Shown: in pieces, positions 1 through 19,212 of the stretch
Numbering within the stretch: the stretch's first letter is position 1
How the letters are laid out: every line of letters begins with the position of its first letter
From: a virus
Virus record (IMG/VR): IMGVR_UViG_3300020204_005035
Location: 1-33,732 of that record
Length of the DNA: 33,732 nucleotides
Direction: 5' to 3' (one strand)
Position numbers and translations under genes: made by a program
The notes under the pieces: generated by a model
The model's input: the letters and a program-made list of their open reading frames with translations, nothing else
What the model was told of the DNA's origin: nothing
Databases searched by the model: none

Positions 1-3000
1 CAAGGCTCACGGCCTCCGCCAGGTACGCGACCAGCGCCCTTCGGCCGCCCCTGGCGAACAGTGCGGCGGCGCCGGAATCGATCATCTTGTAGGTGACGTC
101 CAGCCCGCTGACTCCGGAGCCGGGGCCAGCCCCCGGTGCGGAACCCAGAAGTCCGAGCATGTCCGTCGACCCCAACTTCACGTCGTAGATGAGCGCGAGG
201 ATCTTCGCGGCGGACTTGATCAAATCGCGCCCCAATGGGGAATTCGCGGAGACGCGGGCTTTGCTCGGGTCGAATACTCGGTCAATCGCCAGACCGACGA
301 CGCTCGCCCTGCCTTTCAGCGCGTCGCCGAACGCTGCGAACTTGATCGCCTCCGTCTGTACGTCCGGTCGCCGGGCGAAGTCGTCGATTATCTGGTCGGA
401 GAGGCGCTTCCAATCCTCGTCAAACCCTGCGTCCCTGGCGACCTCGAAATCCATGGATGGGGCGATTCGCACGAAATCGCTCATCACGCGGCGGAGGTCG
501 GGGTCCGGGGTGCCCATGCCGGCCTCCGCGTCCGCTTGCGGCGAAGACAGGTGTCTCCTCCTGATCTCGTCGCTCAAGTCCCTTATCTTGTCCTTGATCG
601 CGTCGGACTTGACCCTGAACTCCGGATCGGAACGCCTACCGTCATGGTCGAAGGAGAACAGGTCCGAAACCGACTCGTTGAACTGGTTGATGAGGTCGTC
701 CGCCTCGCTTTGTGCGTAGTTCCTCCCTCCCCTCCTCAACCCGTTGCCAATGTCCAGCGTGTTGATCCCCAGCCTGCGCAGCGCCGATTCCACGGCGCGC
801 GCAGCGCTAGCCGGATCCGAGGCGGGGTCAATTATCATTCCAAGCGAGGAGGGGGTGGCGACGCCATCGGACACCATCTCGGACGTGTTCCTGAACGCCC
901 TTGACGTGATTGCGTCCGAGTACGTCGAGTAGTCGTGCGTCGAAAGCCTGCCGAGGAGCTCGGACCTGGGGACTCGCGACAACCTTGAGACCCTCTCCAG
1001 GGCCTCCGCAATCTCTCCGTTGGCGACCGAGTAGTCGAGCATCAGCGACAGGTTGGCGTTCCTTGCCAGCTCGGCCCTGTCGGCGACGAACTCACCGGGG
1101 AGCTCGTAGCTTCCGTCCATTATCCCCGGTGGGGCCCTGAATTCGCCGGTCAGCTTGTACCCCATCCTGCCCATCGACACGGAGAATCCGTTTTGGTCCG
1201 TGCTGTCGTTTGACCTGATTCTCATCACCCTGTTGGCGGCGGCGACCGAATCGAGCGCCCTCGACATGGCGGCGTTCGAGGACGGCCCCGAGTGGAAAGC
1301 GTTCTCGAACCTGAGCCTGTGCGCAGCGAGTTGCTCGGATAGCTCGACATCGGACATGTCCGCCATGGCCACGTCGTCGCTGGTTGCGACCCAGTAGGAG
1401 GATGAGTCCGTCGCTCCGTCCCTGTTGGTCAGGCCCGCCATGCCGGCGAACGGTCCGTCCGGCGACCTCCTTCTCCCGAAGTTCCTCCTCCTCATGTGGT
1501 CGGCGTACTGGGCGGGCGTCGTAGGTTTGCCCCCGGGGCCGGCCGACGTGCGTACGCCGTATATGTTCGCGGGAAGCTCCGTCAGCTCGCTGGGTCTCGG
1601 GGGGGTGTTGCCGCCTGCGTTTATCTGGGCGAAATCAAACTTCTTGAGTTTCCCGTCCGCTAGGTCAATTCCGTGGACCACCAAGTCGTTTGGCCCGAGT
1701 GCCTCCGACTGCCTGACTCCCGACTTGGTCGTCAGCTCGATTGAGATGATTCTGTACGCAGCCGTCGACCCGTCCGGATTCCTGCCGTAGTTGAACTCGA
1801 TCGCGAATCCTGCATCCCGCGCCTCGTTGAACGTGGCCAAAGCGGCGGTTGCGGGGCCCGGCCCGTCCTTGGGTGAGACCGACTTGAACTCGTAGTGGAT
1901 GCCCGTGGGCGTCTCGTATACGCGGACCCCCGAGACCGTCTGGTACAAAAGCCTCCTGTTCGGGTCTCCGTCGTCCCTGGGTGGCGTCCCTCCGCCTCCC
2001 GGTGGTCGGGTGTCTCCCCCGCCTGGGGGCGTGGACGCCCCACCACCACCGCCCCCTGGTCGCGGTTCCCTTGGCGCGTCTCCGCCGCTGGGCTGCGTCG
2101 GCGTCTCCGGGTCGAACAATCTCTCGCGCGGTCGCTCCGTGATGCCGCTCTGGTTTCTCCAAGCGCCGAGGTCGGCCGTGTACTGGTTGTCGACCTGGTC
2201 CTGCGCCCATTGCACTAAATTTGGGTCAAACATCTGATCGGCCCTTCCCCACCGCTCAGCGAGCGCCACCATTTCCAGGAAGACCTTGGCGGTAACGTTT
2301 ATGTCCGCCACTGCGTCGTGCGCCGCCAATACGGGCACGTCGAAGTACCGGGCGAGCGCCTCGAGCGCGTTGGACGACACGAACTTCGGGTACCACTGTC
2401 CGAGACCCTCCTTTTTCAACATCGGTATGTACTTCAGCGGACCGGTGGCCCTGCGTCCTATCCTGTCGAGGGCGTCTGGTTTGCCACCTCTTCCCCCCCA
2501 CGACCTGGCATGCGGGTATTCGGGATGTTTCCCGCGGATCGTGATGACCTTTGAGATCCAGTTGACGAACGGGTTCATGTCCCTGTCGTAGTTTTTCTTA
2601 CCGGACTTCGCCGACGGAGAACCATTCAGGTGTGCTTGGATCTGCTTGAACCTGTAGGAGTCGATGTGGAACACCCAGTTGGCGATGGCGAGCGTGTCCA
2701 TCCAGCCGGCGGTGGGGTATTCGCCCATCACCTCCTTCCACAGCGACATGTCGAAATTCCTCATGTTGTGGGAGATGATTATTCCGTCGGCCCCCACGAC
2801 CTCCGCTATTAGGCGCCGCGCCTCGTCGACGGGCACGAATTCGCCCGGTGAGGTCGCTAGCGCTTGACCGACGGGGATGCCGTTCTTCTTCACGTTCTTC
2901 TTCGTCCAATCCGACAGCGGCGTGCCGGCGGGATCTATCCACACCTCGAGTCGTTTGGGGTTTGCGAAATCCCCGTTTTCGACGACGATGATGCCCACTT

Positions 3001-6000
3001 GCAGTGGCCTACCCGTGTCAATCTCGCCTATCGGAATGCCGGTCGTCTCCCAGTCGACGAAGACGAGCTTCTTGCGCCTTATGAAGTTCATGAACTCAGG
3101 CCAGCTCCTGATTCTGTCCATCTCGGCCTTGATGCCTGTCGGAAGCTCCCTGCCGTCGGGGCCGATCGGATTTCCCCAGGGTCGCCACGCCTTCCTGAAA
3201 GGCGTTCTGAGGGCGGTCTTGCCAGTTTTCGGATCTATCACCTCCTCGCCGGTCTCTTCGTCTATAACCGCCCTCTTTTTCCAGGTTTCGATCCACTTTT
3301 CGGTGCCCAGCCTTATTCGCTCCCACAGCCTTTTTTCGTCCGCCCGACCCGCTTCTATGGCCTTGGGGTCGTTGCGCGCCAAGCCCCGCGCGACCTCCCT
3401 CGCCGTGGGTTTCGCCCCGTCGATCCCCGCACCGGGTGCGACGTACTCGGGCCGGGGATCGAGCGTCACTGCGTCGAACTCGCCGGGTCTGGTTTCGATC
3501 TGGCCCACAAGATTTTGGTCGTCGGAGTCGCTGGCAACGATTGGGATCTCGCGCGTGTCCGGGCTGTCCGTCGCCTCGCTTGTCGTGTCAGCGGTGGGTC
3601 GACTGGTCGCCGGCCTCGGTTTCGTGCTCTCGTCGTCGTCGCGTATCACCGGCCTCATCCTGTCGGTGCTGAACACTCTCCTCTGCTTCTTCCCGTCCAC
3701 GTATTCGTCGCCGACCACGTATGCGTTGAGGTCCCCGACCTGCACGTCGTTGTTGCTGGAGTGGTCCCCGAGTCTCTCCTCGTCGGTTGCGAGCTTGGAC
3801 AGGTCAACCTGCGACATCGGGACGAGCCTCGTTATGCCTCGGTCGTCCGTCACGAGGATCCGGGTCTCGCCGATGGTTTTGTCGTACTCGCCGTACACGA
3901 CGAGTGGGTTGAAGATGGTCCTGTTCCTGTCCTCCTTCACGCCCGGCTTGTCCTTGACCGAGCTCGGGTAGGAGAAGACGAGACCCACCTTTCCTCCGGC
4001 GTCCCTGTCCCTCTTGCGAACCGCGGCGACGATCCTCCTTATTATTCCCGCCGGGCTCGTGTCGAACGCACCGCCGTCCCTCGCCCTCGCGGTGCCGGGC
4101 AGTTTGGATATCTCGATGTAATCACTGTCCCGGTCGCCGCCTTCGCCCCTCAGCCGCATTTTTATGTAGTTGTAGAGGTTGGACCTCGTTGGGGAGGACA
4201 TCCCCGCTTCCGCATCCCCGCCTGGAGCGCGGTTCCTCGACGGCGAGAATTCGTCGTCGGCTCGCCTCGGCGAGACGCGGTCGTATACCAAGTCGGAGAT
4301 CTCGACGGCTATCGGCGATCCGTCGGGCAGGTACCCGACGATGTGCGGGGTTCCGTTACCGTCGAGCACGAACTCCCCCGTGATCTCGTCCATCACGCCG
4401 CTGACCACCCTGGGCGAGCGGATGACCCGGTCGACCAGCGACGGTCTCGTCTTGGAGCCTGGCTTGTAGCCGACGACCTGCGTAACCTTCACCGACTTTT
4501 CGTCCTTCTTTATGCCGGCGATCAGTCTCTGCAGGTCGGCAAAGTTCTCGGACCTGCGCAGGGCGACGACGCTGTCCTCCTGCCTCCGCGGCGCGTCGGA
4601 CAGAACGACGTATCCGTATGGGTCGTACACGAACCTGTCCCTGAGTCTGGGTGACTTGTCGCTGGCCGCTCGGCGGAGAGCGAGGATTATTTTCTGCGGA
4701 GAGTCGCCGGTGAAGCCGAGAAGTTCGTCCATCTGCCTCGTGCGCGAGGCCTGGAAGCGGATCTCCTCGCTTAGGACGTCAAGCTCGACTCCCTCGTCCT
4801 CCCAGCTCGCTACTCGCTGCGAAACCCCCGGAGCGGTTCCCTCGGGGTGGTTCCAGGTCCTAAGCTGCCTGCCGGAGAGAATGAGCGCGTACTTGACCTG
4901 CGACGCGGGGTGGTACTCGAACGTTGAGGCGTCGGCGATGCTCCTGCCGATCCTGACCGGGACGTACTCGACCGGGTTCCCGCTCCTGTCGTAACGAATG
5001 TGCGTCGTCGTCCCTGGTTCCACGAACGGAATGAGCTGCCCGTATCCCCTGTCGGTGTCGGCCGCGAACGTGTCGTACATCGAGACGCCGATCTCGTCCC
5101 TTTCGTGCGGGAGCTCGCCCCTCAGGCTCCGCAGGCGACGGAGGGACTCAGCCTTGAGCAGGAGCATCCGCCACCTCTGCTCTCCTCCGAGCGTCATCGC
5201 CTTTCCGCCGAGCGCGTCGCGGAGCAGGCCGAGGAGCTCCGCCTGCTCCCTGTCCGGCATGACGGACTCTGGGATCAGCCAGTCGTTCCTGTCGTCCGAC
5301 GGGAAGTACTTCTCGGTCCTTGCGACCAGATCGGCCGTGCGGGGAGCGAGTGCCATCCCTGCCTCTGCGTCGCCGCCGGAGCGACCGTAGGGGCGCGGGT
5401 ACCCCATGCGGCGAACGCCGTCCCCTTCGTAGAGCTGCCTGGTCACTTGGGAGGTGACGGACAGCTCCTCGGCGGAGACTATTCTCCCGACGATGCTCTC
5501 CGGCTTGATCCTCACCTCCCTGGTGTCGTCAATGAGGTCTCCGTCGTAGGTTGGGTCGACGTCTATCACGAAGTCCATGTACCCAAGGCCATCGGTCGTG
5601 GTTCTCCCAGGTTCCCCTCTCGCGACCGCCTCGGGGTCGATTCGCCTCCAGAACGGTCCCCCGCCGGGCTGGGATTCGTCGGCCTCGTTTGACAGTCTGA
5701 ACCTCAGGATTTCCCTGATCCTGATGATTCTCGTGATCCCGCTTCCGGGGGGACCCAGAAGTTGCGGCTCGTTCCTGACGTCGACGACAAGGTAGGTCGG
5801 GTGACGTTCTCTCGGAGTGAAATCGTCCGGGGGGTCGAACTCCGATCTTTCGACCTCGTAGCCCCTGTCCGAGAGCGATCTCTCCGAGGCTTCCCTCTCC
5901 TCCACCGTCAGGCGGTTGATGTCGTTCAACACGTGAACCAGGAAGTCCAGCGGTTCCCGGTCGAGCATCAGATGCGGGCCCGATTCGTTCACGGGGAATT

Positions 6001-9000
6001 TTGCGTTGTCTGGCGGCAACGCCGAGGGTGCCACGACGTGAACCAGTCGTTCCGGGTAATCCTCGTCCAGTCCAATGGCGATGTCCGCCGCCGAACCCGT
6101 GTACCCGATCGCCCACGGAGCCCTCCTCGTCTCGGGCGTGAGGTCACCAGGAGGGGCCTCGATGAACGTGGACGGAGTCTGCGGGACGAGGAGTCTCTGC
6201 ATCGGTCCATCTGGCAGATCCCTCTCCTCCCTGTCGTCCAGGTACGCTTGGTCGCGCGTCAAAATCGGGTCGAGCCTCCCGCGCTCGTCGAGGATCGGCC
6301 TGCGCGGTTCCAGCGCGGCCATACCGGCCTCGGCGTCCCCGGTTCGCGCGACGTAACCCTGCGGCGCCAAGTCCGGGTCCGTCAGGACGGTCTCGATGTC
6401 GACGAACCCGTCGCGCTTGTGCATCTTTATGGCCCTAGCCATCAGGGCCGGGCCGAGGCTCTGCACAAGGAACTTCGGGTCGCTCGGCGCGACGTCGTTC
6501 GTGATCCTGACCGGCGTCGAAATTCCGATCAGGGGTTTGAGTGGGGCTATTATCTGCGACTCGCCGCTCGGTCCGAGCAGCCCGCCCCTGACTATCTCCG
6601 CGTCCAGCCTGCCCGCCGCCAGGAACGCCCCGCCGCGCAGCGAGCCCGTCAGCTCCCACCGGTCGAGCATCGTTTCGTCCACGGGGGTCCACCTTCTCGT
6701 GAGCCCGTCCGTGAACCCCGGCGAGAAGCTGACGACGTCGCGGGGCAGGTCGAAATCGGCGTACCTTCCGTAGAAGTCGAGGGAACCGACCGCGCGCGTG
6801 GCGTCCGACTCGGCGGACAGCATTTGGTCCATGTCCCTCCCGCCGAACTTCGTCAACGAGTCCCTTATCTTCTGGTAGCGCTGGAGGTCGCGTTTCTGGG
6901 CGTCGACGAACCTGTTGACATCCGCGACGATCGCGGCGACGCGCGCCTCGTCGAAGTTCTCCATGTTCAGCAATCCGCCTTCGCCGAATGCCATCGACAG
7001 GAGCTGGGATTGCGCCCTCAACGCCTTACGTATCGACGGGTGTGCGGTGACGACCGTCTCGCCTCGGGCGATCCTCGCGGCGAGGTCGGACGAGTGCCTG
7101 ACCATGTCGGACTTCGCCTCCGCGGACTGCAGGAACCTCGCCACGTAGATCCTGTTCGCCCCCCTCGTGTCGCCCTGCCCGGCCACCGACCCGGCGCGGC
7201 CCTCGACGCCCGCCGACATGCGAGGGTCGAGCACGCCACCCGAGAGCCTGTCAGGCCCCTTGTGGACAACGTAAGCGAAACCGTCAGCGCCCCTTGACAC
7301 GCCGGCGGCGTCGTAATCCTGCCCGGACATGGACGCAAGGAATCCGGTTTCGTCGGCGAGCATCCTCGCCGTCTCGTCGTCAAGCGTCTCGAGGTCAACG
7401 ACGTTCTGGGAGCGCCTGACCTCCTTGGAGTCCCGGACGTGTTTGAGCCTGTCGAGCTCCTTCTTCGCGATATCGACCTTCCTGCGCACCTGGGCGAGCC
7501 GGTCCGACGTGGCTTTCTGGACGTGCTGCTCCACCATGTCAGCGGGAGCGTCCGGGTACCTGGACAGGAAGAACTCCGCCTCGTCCAGCTCGAACTGCTC
7601 CTTGGTCCTGTTGCGCGGAGTGATCGGCGTACCGTCGTCGTCGGAGTCGAGTCCGTACCTCATCATGGTCGCGTATTCGGGGACCCTCCCGGTCACGTTT
7701 GCGTCGCCTCCGATCCAGTCGCCCGTGCTAATCAGGTGGTCCAGCGCCCTCATGAGACCGCTCAGTCTCCTCTCGGCGCCCTCGACGTCCTGGTCCATCT
7801 TCGTCCTTGCCGCCGAGTCGTTGGCCCTTATCGCGCCGACCCTCTCGGCGACGCTGGGGGCGGATTCGTTGATGACGCGCGAACCGTAGAAACGAACTGC
7901 TTTGCCCGAGAGGTCGGCCACGCCGGTGATCCTTCCGTCCGATTTCAAAAGAATCGCCGGGAACTCGAGGTTCGCCCCGCGATCGTCGCCCAACAGCTGC
8001 CTGCCGATGAGCGTAGACACCGTCGCCTGGTCGTCGCCCCTCACCGGCATCATCATCACTGACTCCATGCTCGGGTTCGCCCTGTCCCTTCGGACCGTCC
8101 TAGTGACCACGTATTCCCTGCCCCCGTCGCCGAAGTCAGCGAACACGACCCTGCGGTTGGGAGGCGACATACCCCCGGACGCGTCCGAAAAGTCGCCGGG
8201 TAGCCCCATGCTCATCGGCCCGTCACCGATCCTGTTGTAGGTGGTGGCCCCGGCGTCGTCGGTCAGCTCGACGAACAGACCGAACTCGTCGTAGAAGATC
8301 CTCCCGTCAACCACCCTGCTGCGCATCTCCGGTGAGTTCACGTCTACCTGGAGCTTGGCTAGCGCCGCAACCTTCGTGGCGGCGACGCGCGCCGCGTCGT
8401 ACCCGTCCCCCATCCTCTCGGCAATGTCAAGGTCCGATGCTCCGTTGAGCCACTTCCCAACGATGAAGCGCTCAATCGACGTCAGGGTGTCACCGCTGCT
8501 CTGCAGGCGCCTAAAAACCTTCATCCTGGCCGGCCTCGCCGAGGCGAGCAACCTCAACGTGTGGGCCGCGGCTCGCAGGCGAACGATCTCCTCGTCCATG
8601 CCGAGGGTCCTGGCGACAGCCGCGAAATCGTCGTTCGTGGACCGCAATGCCTCGAAGACCTGTACGTTTATCGGTCCGTCAATGTCGAGCGGATCCTGCT
8701 CATCGTTCGCGATCTTGATGGCGGAGGAGACGAAATCCCTCGGGCTGCCCGTGGTTATCTTCGCGGCCTCGGCCAGCGAAGAGAACGGGCCGCGCATGGA
8801 CTTGTTGAGCTGGTCAACCTCCGGGGCGACGGCGGACAGGCGGCGACGACGCGACCCGCCGACCATCAACTGGTCTATCTTGTTGCTGATCACACGACGG
8901 AATCGCATCAGGGCCGCCAGTCGCACCCTCTGCGCGTTGCTCAGTCCGTCCTCGCCCAACTCCTTCAGCGAGTTGAGGATCTCTATGAAACTCGGATCAA

Positions 9001-12000
9001 CCGCGTTTCTTCTTCTTCGGCTTCCGGGCCTTTCGGCCCCTGGTGCTTTTGGGCGGGCGGCGTCCACCGCCCTGCCTCCACGACCGAGGGCCATCGCACC
9101 CGACGGACCATCATCGATCATCCTGTTCCTCAGCTTGGCGAGGGCGAGCTGCTCCATGCGCCTGATGGCGAACCTGTCGGTCCTCAATCGCTCAGCCGCC
9201 TCCTCGAGCAATTCGCCGTCGAAACGTCGCCTGAGCAGATCCGCCTCGGAGTCGGTGAGACCGGTCATCGGGTCGTCGACCATCGCCCGTGCGAGCCTGT
9301 TGGCGTGCTGCTGACCAAGGTCGCGCAGGTACTTGTGATGGAGTAGCTCAAGCTGCCTGGCCCTCTGCCGGGACGTCCTGAAGCGACGGCCGGCCTCGTC
9401 CAACGACAGCTTGTCGTGGGTCCTTGCCAACCAGATCTTTCTCCCCAGGTCCGCGTTCTCCGCCCTGGTCCTGGCGCGACCGGCCATTCCGGCTTCCGCA
9501 CCCGGGGGTGGGTCCGTGATGGCACGTTCTCCCGGATTCGGCAGGTCAATGTCCTCCATCATGTCCGAGATGTCTTCCCCGCTCCTTCTTCTCCTGAAAA
9601 GTTCCTCGAGCTTTTCTCCGGAATCGATTACCACGGCGCGCCCGCGGCGTCTGTTCCTGTTCGGACCGGCCATTCCGGCCTCCCCGTCGTCGTCGACGAT
9701 CTCCCCGTCGACGATGTCGTCGTCCCTCATCCTGGGCCTGGAGGCGATTTGCTCCGCGCTGAATATGACCTCTTCCTGGTTCGGTATCAATTGCCCGCGA
9801 TTGTCAAGCGGCGGTGCCGGGTCGTTGATGTCCATCGCCTGCCCGAAGTCGACGCCCCTGTAGACGAAGTCGCCCCTGGTGTTGAAACCTATTGAGTCCC
9901 AATTGGCGAGCAGACTCTCGCGGATCCAATCGGCGTCTTCCGACTGCACCCCCGCTATGTCCACGAATTCCCCGTCAAAACCGTCCCCATCCTCGAAGTC
10001 AGTGGAGTCCCTGTAAAAGATTCTCCCCGTCGAGGTGTCAAGCCAGAATTCACCCTGACCGCGCCAGCTCGGGGATCTGACCGAATAATCCGGAGACATC
10101 CCGGCATCCCGCATCTTCTCGCGTCGTGCCGACAAGTTCGCAAGTCCAATCCGCTCCGCCTCAAGCATCTCGATCTCCGCTCGGGTCATCCCGGTGGCAC
10201 CGAGTTGCTCCGCCGTGAAGATTATGTCGTCCCCGTCTGGTCCGCGGACGACGAGGTTGCCCTCTCCGTCGTAGCCGACGTAGTCGTAGTCGTCGATGTT
10301 GAAGTCGGGGAGCGGCGCGTCGTCGCCGGTGTCCCGGTCGCCAGAGTCCGCCAGGTAAAGTCGCCCGTTGGTTGGATCCCGGTAGATGCGTTCGTTTTCC
10401 GAGGGGCGGAAGGTGCTCTCCACGAGTTCTCCCAATTCCCCGTAGGTCCTTCTGCCGTATTTCCTTCTATGACCGGCCGAATCGAGCTGCTCCGCCGTAA
10501 AGATTATTTCGTCCCCGTCGGGGGCCCGGCTGACGAGATTGCCCGCTTCGTCGTAGCCGACCGAGTCGTAGTCGTCGATGTTGAACATGTCCAGCTCGGC
10601 CTCTTCGGAGTTGGCCAAATACACGGCTTCGTAGGCATCGGCTTCGCGAATACTTCCGTCCACCGGATCCAGGTGGAGAGTTATGTTTTCGGCAGGACGC
10701 CAAGGGCTCTCAATGAGTTCGTCCAGTTGCCCGTAGGTCCTTACTATCTCTGCGTCGACGATGTCGTCATCCTTGGGCATCGCGAGTCGATCTTCAAGGA
10801 TGTCCGCGGCCTGCTCAAAGAGTTGGGCGGCTTCTTCGTCGTTGTAGTCCGTCCTCATTATTTCGGCCTGCGACCGCATGGCGTTGATGTTGTCTCGGTC
10901 GCTGTACTCGTACCTATCAACTTCGTTGGTCTTCGGACGGAAACTTCCGCGCAAAGAATCCTCAGCCTGTCTAAACATTGCCGACGTATCGTCGTCGAGA
11001 CCTCTGCTGCCGGGCTGCTCTCTCTCCTCTCGGGCCTTACGGAATCTGTCGGCCAATTCGTCGGGGCCGCCTCCGCCTCTGCTCATTCCGGCTTCCCCGT
11101 CGCCTCCGCTGAATTTCCTGAAGATTTCGTCGCGCCTGGGCCACAGGTCCCTGTTGTTCCTTCCCCTGTACACAGGGTTGCGGGACGAGCCGCCAACGTA
11201 ATTATCCTCGTTTATGAATTTTTCGACTGCCTCCTCTGCCAATTCCTGCGCCAAAGAGGCGATCTCATCGGCAGACGGGACGTAATCCGGATCGTCTTCG
11301 TTCTCGTCTCCGAGATATTCCAAAATATCGTCGAGTATTCGGGGACGCAGAACGCTCGTGTCGCCAGTCGTGAGTGCTTCGTCGGCCCTTCGTTCGTCCA
11401 GCATCAATTCGTAGAATTCCCGTTCCCGGGACTCGACGTCTGTCCGCCCCACGAATCGGCGCGAGTCCGGGTCGCTCATCCCGGCTTCCGGGCCATCAAT
11501 ATCGCTGATGTCGCCGCGTGCGGCGTCGTGGGCGTCGCGAATTCTCTCCAGAATTTCCTCTGGCGTATCCCCGGCCGCCTCCCCTTCTCTCATTATCCTG
11601 ATGGTCTCGGGGGTGTCCAGATCCCATGCCCCGAACCTATTCCTTGTTGCATTCGTGAGATCTTCCATGGAGTAAATGGCGTCGGGATCGCCGCTCGTAA
11701 TCGCATCCATCATTTGTTTCCGAACTTTGTCGTGGAGTACGACTTCATCTGGATCCGTCGGGCGCCTAAGCTCCGGATCGTATGTGAGGAACATGGTTGC
11801 CCTCTCGCCCCTCCACTTGCTCTTCGGGTTGTCGCTTTGCCTGTCGGACGGATAAGTCATTCCGGCTTCCGGTCCGTCGAGCAGCATCAGTCTCCGCATT
11901 TCGTCGATTCCCTCGTCCCTGAGACGACGCTGCCTGGTCTGCCTGCTCGGGCGGTCGAACGAATCTGCTCGCGCCAAGTCCTCCGCCAACCTCTTTGGAA

Positions 12001-14152
12001 TACGCCTCCTGCCAGTCGGAACGAGGGGGCGCACGGGCACCGTCGGCCTGATTGGTTGCGGACGCACCGGGACCGGCTCTCTCTCCGGCTCGGGCACGGG
12101 AACGGGCACGACCGGCTCCGTCTCCGGTTCCGGTTGCGGAACTGGGGTCGGGGGCCTGTTCGGCTTGGGCACGAACGGCGACGGTTCCGTCACCGGCTTT
12201 GGTTCCTTGGCTGGTTCCGGGACCTCGGTCGGCTCGGGCACCGCCGGCATCATCAGCGGGCGTCTTTGATTCATTCTGTCGGAAACCCTCGGAACGTTCG
12301 GATCACCGAAGCGCGGCCCATCCGGGATCCCGAACGGCGTCGGGTCCGGCACTCCGCGGCCCATGTTGACGAGCGGGTTGCCCTCGAGCACCAGCTTGTC
12401 CAGGTCGGCGTCCCTCGCGGTGAACGGGTTCATGTCGACGTTGAAACCGCGCACGGCACCACTTATGTTCGGAACGCCGAGACCCCTGCGCATGGCCATC
12501 CCCGCCGGGTTCACGAACTTCCGGCTCATTCCCTGCTCTATCTTGTTGACGACGAAGTTCTGCGCCTCAACGGAAAGGAACCCGAACCCCTTCAGGAGGA
12601 AACCTCCGTTGACCGGCACGACCTCAAAATTGAGCTGGTCGCCGAGCGACTTCAGTTTCATGAAGGCGATCCTCGGACTCTCGCCCCGCGTGAGCGCCAC
12701 CGATGCGTCGCAGTTGCCGCCGTTTCCGCAGGAAGGACAGCAGTGCCCCTCGTGACCGACGTGGCCTGCGTGGTGCCCGACGTTCGGGGTTATTCCCGTC
12801 GTGACCCCGCCGACAGTCTGGCCGGATGTCGTCTGGTTGATCGGGATGTAGACGGTCTCGGGCTTCACCTGCTGAGCCGTGCCGAACATGAACTCGTCGC
12901 CGTCGTAGTGGTACGCGACCCTCATCGTCTCCACCGACGCGCCAGCGCCCATCTCGAACACCGCTATGTCGTTGTCGGCCGTCACCAGTCTCACGGGGCC
13001 GCCGAACCTCGCGGCCAGCGCCCTGGTCAGCTCGGATGCCCTGCCGAACGTCTCGTTCTGCTGCGCACTCGTGGCGGAGTAGATGGCCGCGACGTAGTTC
13101 TTGTTCTCCACCGAGTCCGAGTCGTCCTTCTTCTTGTTCTTCTTCTTCTTCGAGTTCTCGTACCTCTCGAGCAGGCGACGACCCTTCGCCGCCAACGCTG
13201 ATGCGTCGGACGCGTTCTGCGGCACCGGCTCACCCCACGCCGCGGCCGAAAGGGCGAGCCTCGAGGGCTTGCCGTTCGGCTTCTTCATCGGACCACTCGG
13301 GTTGGTGAAGAAGCGGGTGAGGAAGGAACCCTTCCTGCGCATTTTCTCCGGCGTGTCGGCCGCGCCCCTCACGCCCGGTTTCAGATTTGCGCCCTCGGTT
13401 CTCTTGAAATGGGCCCGACCAGCCGCCGTGAGTCCGCCCTTGGGGTCGCGCAAGACGGGCTTGCCCGCCTTCTCCTCCGGGCAACACTCGTCCTCGAGCG
13501 ATTTGCCGTTGATGGGCACGCAGTTGGGAACCATCCTCCCGCGCTTGCCCTTCTTCATGCCGACCTGTTTGTATCCGGGCCAGCAAGGACCCTTCCCCTC
13601 CTTGGTCTGCGTCTCGGCCTCGTCGGCCTTGATCGATATCGTCCCCGTCAGCTGGTTGGCTCCGTGCAAGACGGGCGACACCTCATAGAGCTCCACTTCC
13701 TTCAGGAGGTTGGCGGTCTGCACCGGGTCGAACACCGCGTCCAGGGTCTTGTATCCGATGGACCACTCCTGCTCCATGCCGAAGAACGACACGTTGGCGA
13801 AGGCCTCCCTGCCCTTCTCCGCCTTGAGGTTGAACTGCACCCTCGCGTAGAGGCCGCCTATGCCAGCCTTGCGCATCTTTGCCGGCAGGCGCGGATCGTT
13901 GGGCCCGACCTCGTAGATCTCGAGCACCTTGCCGATCGGGGAGTTCCAGTCGTGACCCCAGACGACGCGAGGCTTCCTGCGCTTGAGGGAAGAAGTGAAG
14001 CAACCCGGCAGACAGATGTCACCCACGGAGTCCTTGTTGCCGACGCCGGCGACGAACGCCTCGACTATGCCCTGCGCCTCATCGACGTTTATCTGACCGT
14101 TGAGAGACTTGTAGAGATAGTCCAGATCGTCGGAAGTTTGCTGGTTGGCCAT
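1..14152 (-). CDS. Giant multidomain phage protein with N-terminal HK97-type prohead protease (C-terminus beyond window)
   Basis: An open minus-strand frame runs without a stop from an ATG at 14150-14152 to the left edge, at least 4,717 codons. Residues 1-165 look like an HK97-family (S78/U35) prohead protease, with WGHD (His67), EWSIGY (Ser131) and ELYEVSPV (155-162). In order follow a His/Cys-rich patch (459-482), a Pro-rich linker (about 635-711), a ~97-residue tandem repeat (from 1138), sigma region-4-like helix-turn-helix units (1582-1677) with possible further ones to about 1933, a DEDDh exonuclease (about 3691-3966) and a WYL-like domain (about 4068-4182). EAGM occurs nine times between segments. 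Prohead proteases are normally about 200 residues, so fusion to more than 4,500 residues is exceptional. The gene follows the portal gene after 86 bp. A virion polyprotein is inferred; the reading frame itself is seen directly. Confidence 0.93.
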   Translation of the reverse strand, partial: MANQQTSDDLDYLYKSLNGQINVDEAQGIVEAFVAGVGNKDSVGDICLPGCFTSSLKRRKPRVVWGHDWNSPIGKVLEIYEVGPNDPRLPAKMRKAGIGGLYARVQFNLKAEKGREAFANVSFFGMEQEWSIGYKTLDAVFDPVQTANLLKEVELYEVSPVLHGANQLTGTISIKADEAETQTKEGKGPCWPGYKQVGMKKGKRGRMVPNCVPINGKSLEDECCPEEKAGKPVLRDPKGGLTAAGRAHFKRTEGANLKPGVRGAADTPEKMRRKGSFLTRFFTNPSGPMKKPNGKPSRLALSAAAWGEPVPQNASDASALAAKGRRLLERYENSKKKKNKKKDDSDSVENKNYVAAIYSATSAQQNETFGRASELTRALAARFGGPVRLVTADNDIAVFEMGAGASVETMRVAYHYDGDEFMFGTAQQVKPETVYIPINQTTSGQTVGGVTTGITPNVGHHAGHVGHEGHCCPSCGNGGNCDASVALTRGESPRIAFMKLKSLGDQLNFEVVPVNGGFLLKGFGFLSVEAQNFVVNKIEQGMSRKFVNPAGMAMRRGLGVPNISGAVRGFNVDMNPFTARDADLDKLVLEGNPLVNMGRGVPDPTPFGIPDGPRFGDPNVPRVSDRMNQRRPLMMPAVPEPTEVPEPAKEPKPVTEPSPFVPKPNRPPTPVPQPEPETEPVVPVPVPEPEREPVPVRPQPIRPTVPVRPLVPTGRRRIPKRLAEDLARADSFDRPSRQTRQRRLRDEGIDEMRRLMLLDGPEAGMTYPSDRQSDNPKSKWRGERATMFLTYDPELRRPTDPDEVVLHDKVRKQMMDAITSGDPDAIYSMEDLTNATRNRFGAWDLDTPETIRIMREGEAAGDTPEEILERIRDAHDAARGDISDIDGPEAGMSDPDSRRFVGRTDVESREREFYELMLDERRADEALTTGDTSVLRPRILDDILEYLGDENEDDPDYVPSADEIASLAQELAEEAVEKFINEDNYVGGSSRNPVYRGRNNRDLWPRRDEIFRKFSGGDGEAGMSRGGGGPDELADRFRKAREEREQPGSRGLDDDTSAMFRQAEDSLRGSFRPKTNEVDRYEYSDRDNINAMRSQAEIMRTDYNDEEAAQLFEQAADILEDRLAMPKDDDIVDAEIVRTYGQLDELIESPWRPAENITLHLDPVDGSIREADAYEAVYLANSEEAELDMFNIDDYDSVGYDEAGNLVSRAPDGDEIIFTAEQLDSAGHRRKYGRRTYGELGELVESTFRPSENERIYRDPTNGRLYLADSGDRDTGDDAPLPDFNIDDYDYVGYDGEGNLVVRGPDGDDIIFTAEQLGATGMTRAEIEMLEAERIGLANLSARREKMRDAGMSPDYSVRSPSWRGQGEFWLDTSTGRIFYRDSTDFEDGDGFDGEFVDIAGVQSEDADWIRESLLANWDSIGFNTRGDFVYRGVDFGQAMDINDPAPPLDNRGQLIPNQEEVIFSAEQIASRPRMRDDDIVDGEIVDDDGEAGMAGPNRNRRRGRAVVIDSGEKLEELFRRRRSGEDISDMMEDIDLPNPGERAITDPPPGAEAGMAGRARTRAENADLGRKIWLARTHDKLSLDEAGRRFRTSRQRARQLELLHHKYLRDLGQQHANRLARAMVDDPMTGLTDSEADLLRRRFDGELLEEAAERLRTDRFAIRRMEQLALAKLRNRMIDDGPSGAMALGRGGRAVDAARPKAPGAERPGSRRRRNAVDPSFIEILNSLKELGEDGLSNAQRVRLAALMRFRRVISNKIDQLMVGGSRRRRLSAVAPEVDQLNKSMRGPFSSLAEAAKITTGSPRDFVSSAIKIANDEQDPLDIDGPINVQVFEALRSTNDDFAAVARTLGMDEEIVRLRAAAHTLRLLASARPARMKVFRRLQSSGDTLTSIERFIVGKWLNGASDLDIAERMGDGYDAARVAATKVAALAKLQVDVNSPEMRSRVVDGRIFYDEFGLFVELTDDAGATTYNRIGDGPMSMGLPGDFSDASGGMSPPNRRVVFADFGDGGREYVVTRTVRRDRANPSMESVMMMPVRGDDQATVSTLIGRQLLGDDRGANLEFPAILLKSDGRITGVADLSGKAVRFYGSRVINESAPSVAERVGAIRANDSAARTKMDQDVEGAERRLSGLMRALDHLISTGDWIGGDANVTGRVPEYATMMRYGLDSDDDGTPITPRNRTKEQFELDEAEFFLSRYPDAPADMVEQHVQKATSDRLAQVRRKVDIAKKELDRLKHVRDSKEVRRSQNVVDLETLDDETARMLADETGFLASMSGQDYDAAGVSRGADGFAYVVHKGPDRLSGGVLDPRMSAGVEGRAGSVAGQGDTRGANRIYVARFLQSAEAKSDMVRHSSDLAARIARGETVVTAHPSIRKALRAQSQLLSMAFGEGGLLNMENFDEARVAAIVADVNRFVDAQKRDLQRYQKIRDSLTKFGGRDMDQMLSAESDATRAVGSLDFYGRYADFDLPRDVVSFSPGFTDGLTRRWTPVDETMLDRWELTGSLRGGAFLAAGRLDAEIVRGGLLGPSGESQIIAPLKPLIGISTPVRITNDVAPSDPKFLVQSLGPALMARAIKMHKRDGFVDIETVLTDPDLAPQGYVARTGDAEAGMAALEPRRPILDERGRLDPILTRDQAYLDDREERDLPDGPMQRLLVPQTPSTFIEAPPGDLTPETRRAPWAIGYTGSAADIAIGLDEDYPERLVHVVAPSALPPDNAKFPVNESGPHLMLDREPLDFLVHVLNDINRLTVEEREASERSLSDRGYEVERSEFDPPDDFTPRERHPTYLVVDVRNEPQLLGPPGSGITRIIRIREILRFRLSNEADESQPGGGPFWRRIDPEAVARGEPGRTTTDGLGYMDFVIDVDPTYDGDLIDDTREVRIKPESIVGRIVSAEELSVTSQVTRQLYEGDGVRRMGYPRPYGRSGGDAEAGMALAPRTADLVARTEKYFPSDDRNDWLIPESVMPDREQAELLGLLRDALGGKAMTLGGEQRWRMLLLKAESLRRLRSLRGELPHERDEIGVSMYDTFAADTDRGYGQLIPFVEPGTTTHIRYDRSGNPVEYVPVRIGRSIADASTFEYHPASQVKYALILSGRQLRTWNHPEGTAPGVSQRVASWEDEGVELDVLSEEIRFQASRTRQMDELLGFTGDSPQKIILALRRAASDKSPRLRDRFVYDPYGYVVLSDAPRRQEDSVVALRRSENFADLQRLIAGIKKDEKSVKVTQVVGYKPGSKTRPSLVDRVIRSPRVVSGVMDEITGEFVLDGNGTPHIVGYLPDGSPIAVEISDLVYDRVSPRRADDEFSPSRNRAPGGDAEAGMSSPTRSNLYNYIKMRLRGEGGDRDSDYIEISKLPGTARARDGGAFDTSPAGIIRRIVAAVRKRDRDAGGKVGLVFSYPSSVKDKPGVKEDRNRTIFNPLVVYGEYDKTIGETRILVTDDRGITRLVPMSQVDLSKLATDEERLGDHSSNNDVQVGDLNAYVVGDEYVDGKKQRRVFSTDRMRPVIRDDDESTKPRPATSRPTADTTSEATDSPDTREIPIVASDSDDQNLVGQIETRPGEFDAVTLDPRPEYVAPGAGIDGAKPTAREVARGLARNDPKAIEAGRADEKRLWERIRLGTEKWIETWKKRAVIDEETGEEVIDPKTGKTALRTPFRKAWRPWGNPIGPDGRELPTGIKAEMDRIRSWPEFMNFIRRKKLVFVDWETTGIPIGEIDTGRPLQVGIIVVENGDFANPKRLEVWIDPAGTPLSDWTKKNVKKNGIPVGQALATSPGEFVPVDEARRLIAEVVGADGIIISHNMRNFDMSLWKEVMGEYPTAGWMDTLAIANWVFHIDSYRFKQIQAHLNGSPSAKSGKKNYDRDMNPFVNWISKVITIRGKHPEYPHARSWGGRGGKPDALDRIGRRATGPLKYIPMLKKEGLGQWYPKFVSSNALEALARYFDVPVLAAHDAVADINVTAKVFLEMVALAERWGRADQMFDPNLVQWAQDQVDNQYTADLGAWRNQSGITERPRERLFDPETPTQPSGGDAPREPRPGGGGGGASTPPGGGDTRPPGGGGTPPRDDGDPNRRLLYQTVSGVRVYETPTGIHYEFKSVSPKDGPGPATAALATFNEARDAGFAIEFNYGRNPDGSTAAYRIISIELTTKSGVRQSEALGPNDLVVHGIDLADGKLKKFDFAQINAGGNTPPRPSELTELPANIYGVRTSAGPGGKPTTPAQYADHMRRRNFGRRRSPDGPFAGMAGLTNRDGATDSSSYWVATSDDVAMADMSDVELSEQLAAHRLRFENAFHSGPSSNAAMSRALDSVAAANRVMRIRSNDSTDQNGFSVSMGRMGYKLTGEFRAPPGIMDGSYELPGEFVADRAELARNANLSLMLDYSVANGEIAEALERVSRLSRVPRSELLGRLSTHDYSTYSDAITSRAFRNTSEMVSDGVATPSSLGMIIDPASDPASAARAVESALRRLGINTLDIGNGLRRGGRNYAQSEADDLINQFNESVSDLFSFDHDGRRSDPEFRVKSDAIKDKIRDLSDEIRRRHLSSPQADAEAGMGTPDPDLRRVMSDFVRIAPSMDFEVARDAGFDEDWKRLSDQIIDDFARRPDVQTEAIKFAAFGDALKGRASVVGLAIDRVFDPSKARVSANSPLGRDLIKSAAKILALIYDVKLGSTDMLGLLGSAPGAGPGSGVSGLDVTYKMIDSGAAALFARGGRRALVAYLAEAVSL
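1610..1950 (-). other. WYL-like domain in the giant protein (residues ~4068-4182)
   Basis: The stretch contains AIEFNYGRNPDG, RIISIELTTKSG, then LVVHGIDLADGKLKKFDFAQI. The strand order and the final 'G-x-D-x-x-G-K-x-x-x-F-x-x-x-x-I' resemble WYL domains, SH3-like barrels that sense ligands or bind nucleic acid in regulators, where the end is usually R-x-F-x-x-x-R-I. The canonical W-Y-L triplet is replaced by VVH. It follows the exonuclease after a Pro/Gly-rich linker. The assignment is by pattern only. Confidence 0.5.
2257..3082 (-). other. DEDDh (DnaQ/RNase T-like) 3'-5' exonuclease domain in the giant protein
   Basis: Exo I is LVFVDWETTG, with Asp3700 and Glu3702. Exo II is SHNMRNFDMSLW, with Asp3801. 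Exo III is AAHDAVADI, with His3945 and Asp3950. These are the two-metal catalytic residues of the DEDDh superfamily, which removes nucleotides from DNA or RNA 3' ends. All key residues are present, so the domain is probably active. The spacing between motifs is longer than in minimal family members, which suggests an insertion between Exo II and Exo III. It lies between the EAGM at 3318 and the PFAGM at 4238. Confidence 0.88.
8355..8990 (-). other. Further possible helix-turn-helix units (residues ~1720-1933)
   Basis: Two helix-rich stretches look like degenerate copies of the same fold. One is around 1836-1863 (FAAVARTLGMDEEIVRLR). The other is around 1888-1933 (an LTSIERF helix, then SDLDIAERMGDGYDAARVA). 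A basic helical stretch before them (about 1720-1745) may be another. They lie between the PSGAM at 1687 and the ASGGM at 1995. The similarity is weaker than in the preceding pair. Confidence 0.45.
9118..9409 (-). other. Two tandem sigma-70 region 4-like helix-turn-helix units (residues 1582-1677)
   Basis: Unit 1 (1582-1612) reads LSLDEAGRRF then RTSRQRARQLE and ends KYLRDL. This follows the sigma-70 region 4.2 pattern (T/S-L-x-E-x-G-x-x-F-x-x-T/S-R-x-R-x-RQ-I/L-E-x4-K-x-LR-x-L). Unit 2 (1632-1677) begins LTDSEADLLRRRF, like region 4.1, followed by LLEEAAERL and RRMEQLALAKLR. In sigma factors this fold binds the -35 promoter element and the RNA polymerase beta flap. Here the pair sits between an EAGM at 1556 and a PSGAM at 1687. 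Sigma regions 2 and 3 were not seen. Confidence 0.7.
10198..10741 (-). repeat. Tandem ~97-residue protein repeat (two good copies, a third degenerate copy downstream)
   Basis: Copy 1 begins with RTYGQLDELIES at residue 1138 and copy 2 with RTYGELGELVES at residue 1235, a period of 97 residues (291 bp). Both contain an FNIDDYD-x-VGYD block and end in a PDGD-x-IIFTAEQL block. A diverged third unit (roughly 9730-10045) keeps a D-S-x-G-R-type strand and ends in EVIFSAEQIAS. Each unit ends close to an EAGM-like motif or an acidic DDDIVD segment. The fold is not recognised; a short beta-rich domain is likely. Confidence 0.8.
12020..12250 (-). other. Pro/Glu/Val-rich linker (residues ~635-711)
   Basis: About 75 residues are dominated by proline alternating with Glu, Val, Lys or Arg (short units such as PEP, PVP, VPEP). 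This is typical of an extended, disordered spacer. It separates the protease-containing N-terminal part from the region where the EAGM motifs begin (first at residue 765). A second Pro/Gly-rich spacer lies near 1965-2135, between the exonuclease and WYL-like domains. Confidence 0.75.
12707..12778 (-). other. His/Cys-rich putative metal-binding patch (residues ~459-482)
   Basis: Residues 459-482 of the giant protein contain five His and four Cys in a Gly-rich stretch, ending in a CC-P-S-C-x5-C arrangement. Such density suggests metal binding, probably zinc. The family is not recognised, and a flexible metal-binding linker is an alternative. Confidence 0.5.
13650..14152 (-). other. Prohead protease domain (residues 1-~168 of the giant protein)
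   Basis: This domain is expected to cleave scaffold and capsid proteins inside the prohead. The order His (GHD, residue 67), Ser (WSIGY, residue 131) and an acidic-rich strand (VELYEVSPV, 153-161) matches the HK97 gp4-like serine protease family, in which His and Ser are catalytic. Its position directly after the portal gene is the usual one for a prohead protease. What is unusual is that no stop codon follows the domain. Confidence 0.87.
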
Positions 14153-14238: not shown

Positions 14239-16458
14239 TCAGAACCCGAACCTCACTTTGCACCGGCAATTCATCGTCAAGTTGATCGCCGCCATCGGAT
14301 CACCCGGGTACCTGATGGAATTTCCGCCGAAGACGAACGGCTCGTAAATCGCAACCGTCTCGCCGTGCATGGCGGCGTGCTCGGGCCTGACCTTCGCGTC
14401 TCTTTCCGATACCCAGGTTTTCGTGGCCGCGCCGACCGAGCGACCTGCGTAGAACGCCCCGGCGTTGTAGGCGGTGTGGGACTCGTGCTCCGCAGTCTTC
14501 CTCTTCCGCTTGGACAGCAGGTTGACGAATATCGCCAGCAGGGCGGCCTTCAGCATCCCCATCTTGTCCTCGCCGTCGCCGAGGGAGAGCGATATCAGCA
14601 CGGCACCCTCTATCTCCTTGGCGGTGGTGGCGTTCATCTGCTGGAATCTCTCGATCTGTTCCTTCAGGTGCTCCGCCGCCTCCTTCTCGTCTATCTCGGC
14701 CTGCATTCCGACCTCCTGGGAGACGAGCGTCGCGGCGTCGTTCATTATCCCGCTGAGGATCGGGCGCATGTCCTCCGCCAGCTGCTTATCCCATATCCTC
14801 TGGTCGAAGATACTCTCGTAGTCGAGGCTCCCCGCCTCCAGCGACTTCCTCGATTTGGAGCCGGCGGCTTTCTCGAGTATCACCCTCTGCTGGCGCTCCA
14901 CGAAACGCTCAAGGGACGAGTCCAGTATCTCGGTCCACCTGTCGAGCGAGTTCTCGGCCTTCTCGTCCCATTCGTCCCACAGCGACTTCGTCGTCACCTG
15001 GTCACCGAACGCCGACGCCTGCCCCATCTGCCCGGCTTGCGCTGCCGCGACCTCCTCCGCCTGCAGCGCCGCCGTCATGCCCTCCTGCGGGGCGGGTGCG
15101 ACCCCCTCGACTCCCGGGGCGCCCGGAACCGGTGGCATTTGCCCCATGCCGGGAATCATCGGTCCGCCGGGTGCGCCCGCCGGCGGCGGGGCGCCGCCCA
15201 TCCCCGGAATGCCCATCTGCTGCTGGACGAACTTCTTGTTCGTGTACCCGATCGGTGTCAGGTTCGGGTTGGCGAGCATGGCGTTCATCAGCTCGGAGTC
15301 GATCACCTTGCGCCCCGCGCCCTCCCTGTACTCGTTGCCGCTGATCAAGCCTGTCTGGTACTCGCTCATCAGGTACCTGTCTCGCTCCTGTTTGTAGAGC
15401 ACCAGGACGGGCACGTCGGTAACGTCGAAGTCGATGTAGTACTCGTCGTCGAGCTCGTCGAGGGCGCGGGCGATCGTCTCGAGGTGCGGGAGCATCGTCT
15501 CGTTCCAGAACACCTTGTGCTCCTCGGCGGCGTTGGCGAACGTCCGGCCGGCGGCGTTGCCGATCACGGACTCGGGGACTCCGAAGGCGGCGAGAATCTC
15601 CTCCTTCTGTATCTGGCGCATCTGCACGTAGTTTGCGTCCCTCGGGCTTTGGCCTGTGTCCACGAAGTCGACGCCCTCGTCCGAGGACAGCACGGTCACG
15701 GCCCCCGCCCTAGCGACGTTTCCCCTGAACCGGTTGCGCAACTCGTCCTTGTCGTCGTCGTCTATCTCGCCCCTGACGACCAGCAGGCCGCCCGGCCTAC
15801 CGTCGTTGAGCAGGAAGTTCCTGTTGTAGAGCTTGGAGAGATTCTCTATCTCTATGGCTATGCCAGCGGACTCCATTGGCGTGAGCGACAGGTACGGGTC
15901 TAGGGGGTGCGGCTTCCTGATCCAGACCACGTCGTCCGGTTTGAGCGTCACCTTCGTTCCGTTGCGCATGTCCACCTCGAAGCCGGACACGAACTTCTTC
16001 GGGTCGGGTATCGGGGCGGTGTGCTGGGGTGGCAGCAACTGGAGGGCGATCAGCTCGCCGTCGCGCCCCCTGATCTTCTCGATGAAGGCCCCGCGCGACG
16101 ACATGAGCAGTTGCGACGACAACCTGTAGCGGAACACGAACGAGTTCTCCCCCATGTTCGCCTTGGTGTTGAAGATGTCCAGTATCTTCCTGTCCGTCTT
16201 CCTGACCACTCTCCCCGACGGGTTGTTGTCCTCCCGCAGGATCATGGGTAGGCGAGATTGGTTCCCGGAAATTGCGTCGATGCAACGATTCACCCAGGTG
16301 ACCTTCTGGAATCCCTCGCGGTATGCGCGCTCGATGTCCCACGAGTCCCGGTACGGCCTGCCGACCTGCGATGGGTTGTAGGCCACCGGGGCGCCGGGAT
16401 TCAGCGCCTTCGTCCTGTCGGTTCCGAGGTTCTTGTTGGTTCGGGAGTTCCACGCCAT
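14239..16458 (-). CDS. Portal protein (HK97/SPP1 type) fused to a C-terminal MuF domain
   Basis: The portal dodecamer forms the DNA entry vertex of the head. Residues 1-380 carry typical HK97-portal features: an N-terminal WVNRCIDAISGN helix, LPPQHTAPIPD, HPLDPYLSLTPMESA, and GVPESVIGNA, which marks the family's crown/stem region. A Met/Gly/Pro-rich linker (about 420-465) leads to a helical region. The last ~78 residues match the MuF (Mu gpF-like) minor head protein pattern: W-x-S-E-R-D, RPEHAAMHGE, RYPGDP and a final NCRC. At 739 residues the protein is longer than an ordinary portal (about 400-550), consistent with the fusion. It starts 9 bp after the upstream membrane-protein gene and precedes the protease-headed giant gene, the normal portal-protease order. 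Confidence 0.93.
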   Translation of the reverse strand: MAWNSRTNKNLGTDRTKALNPGAPVAYNPSQVGRPYRDSWDIERAYREGFQKVTWVNRCIDAISGNQSRLPMILREDNNPSGRVVRKTDRKILDIFNTKANMGENSFVFRYRLSSQLLMSSRGAFIEKIRGRDGELIALQLLPPQHTAPIPDPKKFVSGFEVDMRNGTKVTLKPDDVVWIRKPHPLDPYLSLTPMESAGIAIEIENLSKLYNRNFLLNDGRPGGLLVVRGEIDDDDKDELRNRFRGNVARAGAVTVLSSDEGVDFVDTGQSPRDANYVQMRQIQKEEILAAFGVPESVIGNAAGRTFANAAEEHKVFWNETMLPHLETIARALDELDDEYYIDFDVTDVPVLVLYKQERDRYLMSEYQTGLISGNEYREGAGRKVIDSELMNAMLANPNLTPIGYTNKKFVQQQMGIPGMGGAPPPAGAPGGPMIPGMGQMPPVPGAPGVEGVAPAPQEGMTAALQAEEVAAAQAGQMGQASAFGDQVTTKSLWDEWDEKAENSLDRWTEILDSSLERFVERQQRVILEKAAGSKSRKSLEAGSLDYESIFDQRIWDKQLAEDMRPILSGIMNDAATLVSQEVGMQAEIDEKEAAEHLKEQIERFQQMNATTAKEIEGAVLISLSLGDGEDKMGMLKAALLAIFVNLLSKRKRKTAEHESHTAYNAGAFYAGRSVGAATKTWVSERDAKVRPEHAAMHGETVAIYEPFVFGGNSIRYPGDPMAAINLTMNCRCKVRFGF

Positions 16459-18568: not shown

Positions 18569-19206
18569 ACGGGCAAAGCACCAATCTGTACACCGCCCTC
18601 GCGGAGAACTTCCCGCAGGAGATGGAGAGGACCGTCACCAAGGGCGGCACGGCGCTCACCTACATCCCCGTCAGCGAGGTGATCAACAGGCTGAACAAGG
18701 TCCTCGGGGTGGACAAGTGGTCCTTCACCATCGTTCGTTGCGAGCGCGACGCCGCCGACCCGGATTTCGTCGTGGCCCACGTCAGGATCGAGTACTTCGC
18801 CACGGACTTCCAGCCGATCGCCCGCGACGGTTTCGGCGGGCAGAAGATCAAGCGAACCAAGCAGGGCCAGATACTCGATCTCGGCGACGAGTTCAAGGGC
18901 GCCATATCGGACGCCCTGAAGAAGGCGGCGCAGACTCTCGGCGTCGGGCTGTACCTGGCCCGAAGCGACGACGCCATAGAGATCGAGCAACACCTCGAGG
19001 CCGAGTCGGTCCAGGACGGCAAGGTCTCGCTGTGGAACACGTTCGTGTCGCTGGCCAAGGGTCTCGAGCCGGACCAAAAGAACAAGATGCGTGAGCGTTG
19101 GAACGAGCGGACGAAGGGGGAGCCCGTGCCCAAGTCGATCGACTCGGTGTCGGTGGAGGACCTCGAGTTCATCGTCGCCGAGGTGAATCGCATCAAGTCC
19201 GAGTAG
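18565..19206 (+). CDS. Rad52/Rad22-like single-strand annealing recombinase
   Basis: The 213-residue protein carries the Rad52-type N-terminal core: a GTALTYIPVSEVINRLN segment followed by KVLGVDKWSF, then the AHVRIEYFA strand and DEFKGAISDALKKAAQ with LGVGLYLA. Rad52-family phage proteins bind single-stranded DNA and anneal complementary strands during recombination-dependent replication and repair. The start ATG overlaps the upstream stop, so the longer frame opening at 18169 is not used before this point. It is followed 6 bp later by a Cas4/RecB-like nuclease, a classic exonuclease-annealase pairing. Confidence 0.88.
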   Translation: MNGQSTNLYTALAENFPQEMERTVTKGGTALTYIPVSEVINRLNKVLGVDKWSFTIVRCERDAADPDFVVAHVRIEYFATDFQPIARDGFGGQKIKRTKQGQILDLGDEFKGAISDALKKAAQTLGVGLYLARSDDAIEIEQHLEAESVQDGKVSLWNTFVSLAKGLEPDQKNKMRERWNERTKGEPVPKSIDSVSVEDLEFIVAEVNRIKSE

Positions 19207-19212
19207 GGTCCC

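Follow-up and report, generated by a model that had tools for sequence, protein, structure and literature searches.

A protease-led giant head protein with recurrent, lineage-specific tags in uncultivated tailed phages: a candidate self-processing polyprotein

The stretch of viral DNA analyzed in this report, called the window here, is 33,732 nucleotides long and corresponds to positions 1 to 33,732 of IMG/VR record IMGVR_UViG_3300020204_005035. Judging by its genes, the source is an uncultivated virus of bacteria and, because some window genes resemble those for tail sheath and tail tube, a contractile-tailed phage. The window carries a giant gene, a minus-strand open frame at 14152..2 that encodes 4717 amino acids (aa) and runs off the left edge, and its N-terminus is predicted to be a caudovirus prohead serine protease of the Peptidase_S78 family. 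The tetrapeptide EAGM recurs along this protein. We propose that the giant is probably a head polyprotein, and that EAGM and the corresponding tags of related phages are sites at which the S78 protease would cut to release head cargo modules. A processing site is the best-supported reading because the protease is N-terminal in the same chain, the modelled tags lie in linkers, the tags occur in trans in other proteins of the locus, and they are replaced in step in related genomes.

Recurrence of EAGM in the giant and its head locus

The nine exact EAGM copies of the original prediction, which numbered each by its Met, were all located in the minus frame of the giant. Composition gives 0.069 copies for the window protein, in keeping with the claim that far fewer than one would be expected, and in 300 shuffles of this protein EAGM was absent from 282, present once in 17 and twice, the maximum, in 1; the commonest 4-mer of any kind in the same shuffles reached 3-5 copies. 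Synonymous codons do vary among the copies (GAA or GAG; GCC, GCG or GCA; GGN), and the copies do stand between dissimilar segments, with no inter-segment similarity within one giant at E 1e-4. About five degenerate copies had also been described; we counted three further AGM sites (PAGM, DAGM and FAGM), looser variants in the window being left uncounted. A single plus-strand stretch, 22111-22122, also matches the EAGM-coding DNA pattern, and none of the other predicted window genes, taken from a greedy set of open reading frames (ORFs), encodes EAGM.

The window ends inside the giant gene, and a near-identical record, the 87,841-bp contig G017, has it complete. The two copies of the gene share 99.99% identity across 14,151 nt, and the full protein has 5467 aa and ten EAGM. 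The G017 gene order is portal (18971-21187), giant (21277-37677) and major capsid protein (from 86943), about 65 kb from portal to capsid, with the S78 gene between the portal and the major capsid protein. Nine large frames lie in this interval (5467, 592, 658, 2457, 2968, 913, 697, 1855 and 5251 aa), and EAGM occurs ten times in the 5467-aa frame, five times in the 2457-aa frame, three times in the 2968-aa frame, once in the 697-aa frame and nine times in the 5251-aa frame. The whole head locus of 20,858 aa thus has 28 EAGM against 0.38 expected, and the other predicted frames of the contig (7,359 aa) have none. The 23 other letter orders of EAGM occur 5 times in total in the same 20,858 aa. 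Chance or low complexity as the source of EAGM was ruled out by composition, shuffles and these letter-order controls. In 28/28 copies the EAGM Met is followed by S, A, T, G or V, compared to a background of 36% of 661 Met, and position -2 is D or G in 27/28, which agrees with the earlier remark that the copies usually follow D-[GA]-x.

The protease domain was used to search IMG/VR, which gave at least 248 relatives; 80 were kept, many of them in truncated loci. Three conserved blocks (VVWGH[DN]W, QEWSIGYK and ELYEVSPVLHGA) are intact in 80/80 kept relatives, and the invariant columns among 31 protease sequences include H67, S131 and H163; we take these His/Ser/His blocks to hold the catalytic residues of an S78 protease. 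A solved-structure search with the protease region returned nothing at E 0.1. A structure model of residues 1-1030, built from 31 sequences, has a mean predicted local distance difference test score (pLDDT) of 58. It contains three EAGM, of which sites 1 and 2 are flanked by helical segments and site 3 is at the end of the model, and all three are in stretches with pLDDT<50 rather than in confident folds, as the original prediction would have them. Foldseek with the whole 1030-residue model gave no match at E<=0.001.

Lineage-specific tags and their replacement

EAGM is present in the protease frame of the four nearest relatives (L009-L012) and absent from 76 of the 80, many of which are truncated. 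Scoring each relative's own over-represented words revealed other recurrent tags in many of those with long head proteins: GPVGxM, GPTxSM, GVVGxM, [VIL]SG[KRSA]M, RGMAS, GMRS, GFAS and GFSS. Proline-rich and acidic repeats outrank the tags in a number of loci and were set aside in tag calling. Four relatives with short proteases (L041, L054, L064 and L077), checked by pattern, had no tag. The core common to all tags is Met, or Phe in one clade (GFAS, GFSS), and in most lineages a small residue follows it. Glu is absent from the recurrent tags of other lineages, and within the EAGM lineage four aligned variants alter E (DAGM twice, QAGM) or G (EAAM) but never M.

The intervening segments are modules, which turn up again in lineages whose tags differ. 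A foreign tag or a variant of it stands at the place of EAGM, no more than 3 residues off, in 11/13 cross-lineage pairs and at 10/12 distinct sites; some of the tags counted are offset by 1-3 residues, two of the pairs share one site in the relative G007, and site 4998 is counted against two genomes. Examples of such tag swaps are DGEAGMAGKKPFIRQRYD, GGPVGAMGRRFVPQRYD and DEPTAAMGRRNFIPPRYD. The two misses are one partial tag (SEAM) and one absence. Seven alignment rows at the copy in the 697-aa protein, which is discussed below, were set aside from this count, none of them with a tag, and 15/28 EAGM copies are without a cross-lineage alignment. In a tree built from 34 protease domains, chosen from the 81 available to cover the tag classes, the ten tag labels need nine changes, the minimum for ten labels, and the EAGM, GPVGxM and GPTxSM lineages are neighbours with support 94/93. 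Nine rows of this tree are labelled 'none', four after a check by pattern and five from word scoring alone, and the SGxM label of several rows is based on few copies.

The same tags occur outside the giants. In ten genomes, tag words derived from the giant were counted in the other proteins of the same contig and in those of other lineages, and the counts were compared by Fisher tests. The test was not blind, as non-giant matches with looser patterns had been viewed beforehand, and the gene sets come from a greedy longest-ORF rule, so the amino-acid totals of the other proteins include some false frames. The own tag was enriched in the own non-giant proteins of 5/10 genomes (p <0.01). EAGM occurs 18 times in 23,357 aa of its own contig, compared to once in 143,692 aa of other lineages; the other significant own and foreign counts are 3 and 0 for GGMRS, 5 and 2 for LSG[AS]M (G008), 4 and 1 for RGMAS, and 3 and 0 for GPVGxM. 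GFAS was found in trans 2 times in its own and 4 times in the foreign set, the latter being much larger.

The clade has an HK97-type capsid protein (PHROG 10, relative G003). The peptide NGANM, followed by P, A or V, lies between a scaffold-like N-terminal domain and the shell domain in 7/7 genomes in which the capsid protein was found (G001, G003, G004, G005, G006, G009 and G017); in the others it falls outside the fetched parts. With Met followed by a small residue, NGANM resembles the core of the tags and would suit a cut after Met, and the junction is presumably the cut site of the capsid protein.

Proposed processing and alternatives

In the mechanism that we propose, the N-terminal S78 prohead protease, concentrated in the assembling capsid, would cut the EAGM-type tags in flexible linkers. 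The scissile bond would be at Met (Phe in one clade) or one residue later, a position that fits because the shared core is Met or Phe followed mostly by a small residue. Cutting would free the protease and the cargo modules inside the head, among them a helix-turn-helix, a DnaQ-like exonuclease and domains without an assigned function, together with a Zeta toxin and a NUDIX domain from a sister protein, and the freed modules would plausibly be ejected with the DNA. Other large proteins of the locus that carry the tag may be cut at it in trans by this protease, and protease and tag would co-evolve, giving each phage lineage its own tag. The earlier proposal of a self-processing polyprotein for the attached protease therefore survives as the best-supported reading, in an enlarged form, since the protein is longer than the window holds and is one of several that are tagged.

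The bond originally proposed is not supported. T4 gp21 and phiKZ gp175 are analogous prohead proteases, and the T4/phiKZ-type rule is a cut after x-x-Glu, by analogy with which a cut between E and A of EAGM had been suggested. Such a cut does not fit because Glu is missing from the tags of other lineages; E varies even within the EAGM lineage, and constraint falls on Met (or Phe) and the residue that follows.

Several points weigh against cleavage by the S78 protease in general or in part. Cleavage, the exact bond, packaging and ejection are all inferred from the sequences. The low-confidence position of three out of three modelled tags is modest support because 464/1030 residues of that model are below pLDDT 50, and a second model, of the C-terminal part from four sequences, is poor (mean pLDDT 49), with its two exact EAGM again in pLDDT<50. 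The protease domain is strongly conserved between lineages with different tags, and no specificity-setting residues were found in it. The capsid NGANM stays constant while the cargo tags change, and therefore speaks against a strict co-evolution that takes in every substrate. Nor is Met always followed by a small residue: Arg follows it in 10/10 GMRS sites, and among 12 GPVG sites (G006) K and E do so once each. Enrichment in trans was not significant, if suggestive, in G009, G002, G003 and G004 (p 0.06-0.18), and the short contig G007 has no own tag in its non-giant proteins. One of the 28 EAGM copies, in the 697-aa protein, is probably accidental, because related stretches in seven other genomes have no tag. 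Finally, in the relative G011 the tags are not measurably more conserved than their flanks (38/40 and 172/186 residues, respectively), G011 being too close, and in G012 only 2/10 sites could be aligned.

The alternative that survives best, although we consider it unlikely, is docking, which the original prediction also named: each copy of the tag would bind a partner in the capsid, scaffold or portal and hold the long chain inside the head, with partner and tag co-evolving. Docking would equally predict recurrence, position in linkers, several tagged head proteins and lineage-specific change, but it leaves unexplained the N-terminal protease, the narrow set of residues that follow Met in the EAGM lineage and the likeness to the capsid junction.

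It is less probable still, and doubtful on present evidence, that the tags are cut by another protease, a host or other phage enzyme, before packaging or after injection. In its favour, a survey of polyvalent proteins reports that zincin-like peptidases are the domain found most often in them, and it raises action after injection (PMC5512222). However, an intact S78 domain is already fused to the substrate, and S78 is the sole peptidase family among the Pfam matches listed for the window giant, five other giants and 5/8 of the other large G017 head proteins (for one of these, 25 of its 32 matches).

Internal translation starts at the tag Met, giving separate proteins from one gene, are very improbable. 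Some copies have GAGG upstream of the ATG, and proteins typically begin with Met and a small residue, but Phe replaces Met in the tag of one clade, and conservation extends to peptide residues upstream of Met, while their codons vary. Least credible of all are tags as leftovers of module shuffling, by recombination at short shared DNA without a role at the protein level: module content and order do vary between relatives, but codons differ between copies, flanks are unrelated and copies are replaced together between lineages.

There is also a broader reading, for which we judge the case evenly balanced: a widespread group of uncultivated tailed phages may encode much of the head interior as protease-led self-processing polyproteins, with a cleavage code particular to each lineage and changed in concert across several proteins, at up to dozens of sites. 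A code of this kind would also block co-infecting relatives from processing each other's cargo.

Other features of the locus and comparison with known systems

Positions of the features in the window are listed in Table 1.

Table 1. Features of the giant gene and its neighbours in the 33,732-nucleotide window
Feature	Window position	Strand	Basis or remark
Giant protease-cargo fusion gene	2..14152	-	4717 aa in window; 5467 aa in near-identical record G017
Peptidase_S78 prohead protease domain (predicted), residues 25-179	13616..14080	-	Pfam PF04586, 41.2 bits, cut-off 21; PHROG 80 head maturation protease, 6.6e-26
DUF6321 domain, residues 235-306	13235..13450	-	Pfam PF19846, 1.6e-26
RDADxDxxVLEGNP element, upstream of first tag	12374..12415	-	Also in some other head proteins
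Proline-rich, low-confidence linker before first EAGM, residues ~640-760	11873..12235	-	Sequence; model pLDDT mostly <50
EAGM site 1, residues 762-765	11858-11869	-	In pLDDT<50 segment 752-797
EAGM site 2, residues 889-892	11477-11488	-	In pLDDT<50 segment 880-909
EAGM site 3, residues 1020-1023	11084-11095	-	pLDDT<50 segment 1017-1030, end of modelled piece
EAGM site 4, residues 1491-1494	9671-9682	-	Sequence
EAGM site 5, residues 1553-1556	9485-9496	-	Relative G007 has GPTASM at matching place
Sigma-70 region 4-like helix-turn-helix module, residues 1631-1676	9125..9262	-	Pfam 22.5 bits, cut-off 24.1 narrowly missed; PHROG 351, 0.0011
EAGM site 6, residues 2608-2611	6320-6331	-	Sequence
EAGM site 7, residues 2930-2933	5354-5365	-	Sequence
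EAGM site 8, residues 3315-3318	4199-4210	-	Sequence
DnaQ/RNase T-like exonuclease module, residues ~3692-3958	2279..3079	-	PHROG 192, 1.7e-11; Pfam RNase_T 19.3 bits, below cut-off 24
Degenerate site DGPFAGM|AGLTN, residues 4235-4238	1439..1450	-	G007 alignment: GPTGSM|SGLTN
EAGM site 9, residues 4543-4546	515-526	-	Opposite GPTASM in G007
Portal protein with head-morphogenesis (MuF-like) C-terminus	14239..16458	-	PHROG 2662 and 2468
Terminase large subunit	16713..18026	+	PHROG 979

Most of the giant's chain matches no family in Pfam or PHROG. The element upstream of its first tag, in the general form R[DN]ADxDxxxxxEGxPxxNxGRG, precedes the linker and first tag in giants and occurs in one copy each in several different head proteins; besides the window site, it is found in G017 frames 58155 (residue 55) and 63902 (residue 244) and in G006 frame 40311 (residue 44), and it may serve in targeting or binding. 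A second small N-terminal element, CxGAH...GxWxxC, which is perhaps zinc-binding, starts one head-locus frame in six genomes (G001 77445, G003 34856, G004 51526, G005 14537, G006p 6323 and G009 34513). Among the other G017 head proteins, the 5251-aa sister protein (70892-86644, L138) has in its C-terminal part, as the last modules before the capsid gene, matches to NUDIX and Zeta toxin (Pfam), and the 2457-aa protein (41658-49028, L136:1658-9028) has clustered helix-turn-helix matches of sigma-70 region 4 and resolvase types. In many relatives the protease is followed by a protein of ~440-540 aa (e.g., L092:3454-4836) with N-terminal CxxC pairs and usually a long acidic Met-rich middle; part of this protein resembles a stretch of Gordonia phage proteases. 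Elsewhere in the window, a phosphoadenosine phosphosulfate reductase-like gene (22579-23811) is flanked by two ParB-like genes (21884-22681 and 23804-24364).

A scan of genome contigs with the protease found two contigs of one gammaproteobacterial metagenome-assembled genome (MAG) and one weak match in another. The two contigs (L143 and L144, with proteases of 438 and 444 aa) are phage-like, have the same gene order and had no tag by the patterns used; their binning may be wrong, and no host is assigned from them. A megablast of the giant gene against phage records gave no match, and the phage searches made returned no cultivated member of the clade. The closest cultivated protease, capsid and terminase are those of actinophages such as Gordonia phage GMA6 and Brevibacterium phage Cantare (~38-48% identity), which also have an HK97-type capsid protein downstream, but the proteases are separate proteins there (~417 aa in Cantare, 484 aa in GMA6). 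No such tag was among the most enriched words of GMA6 ORF14, Cantare gp11, Gilgamesh gp48, or the large head-locus proteins checked in Pumpernickel (three) and Big4 (four). Gene 48 of Streptomyces phage Gilgamesh (L142 11979-25853) is a 4624-aa hypothetical protein that lies between the portal and protease genes, without a recurrent tag of this kind.

Searches of the literature (open-licence papers) found no description of such a tagged protease-cargo polyprotein; two known systems come near it. Phage SPN3US has a prohead protease, gp245, that cleaves after AXE at 14 sites spread over nine substrates and prefers Ser at P1'; 13/14 of the cuts remove N-terminal propeptides of separate proteins (PMC10052503). 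The phages described here would be similar in that one phage protease serves one short motif in several head proteins; unlike SPN3US, they join the protease, here an S78 enzyme, and the cargo in one chain (ten exact tags in G017), and their lineages have no Glu rule in common. Polyvalent proteins, as set out in the 2017 survey, are long polypeptides of phages and conjugative elements with many unrelated conflict-type domains and embedded peptidases, proposed to be packaged and injected; its authors liken them to RNA-virus polyproteins, and assemblin-like peptidases are always C-terminal (PMC5512222). The giant likewise combines several unrelated effector-like domains (S78, DUF6321, the sigma-70 region 4-like match under its cut-off, and DnaQ-like), with Zeta toxin and NUDIX in its sister, but its peptidase is N-terminal (residues 25-179 of 5467), and the passages of the survey consulted make no mention of a recurrent inter-domain tag.

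The giant would thus work like both SPN3US processing and the polyvalent proteins, and what sets it apart is that its chain begins with its own S78 protease and that each lineage has a recurrent tag not shared with the others. If the proposed processing is correct, a group of DNA phages uses an RNA-virus-type polyprotein strategy for head cargo, over up to 65 kb from portal to capsid. The lineage tags would then be ready boundaries for many uncharacterized modules, whose probable destination is the host cell, and prediction of the cut sites would split otherwise uninterpretable 5000-aa proteins into testable pieces. They would also represent a natural experiment in the joint change of specificity of a protease and many substrate sites.

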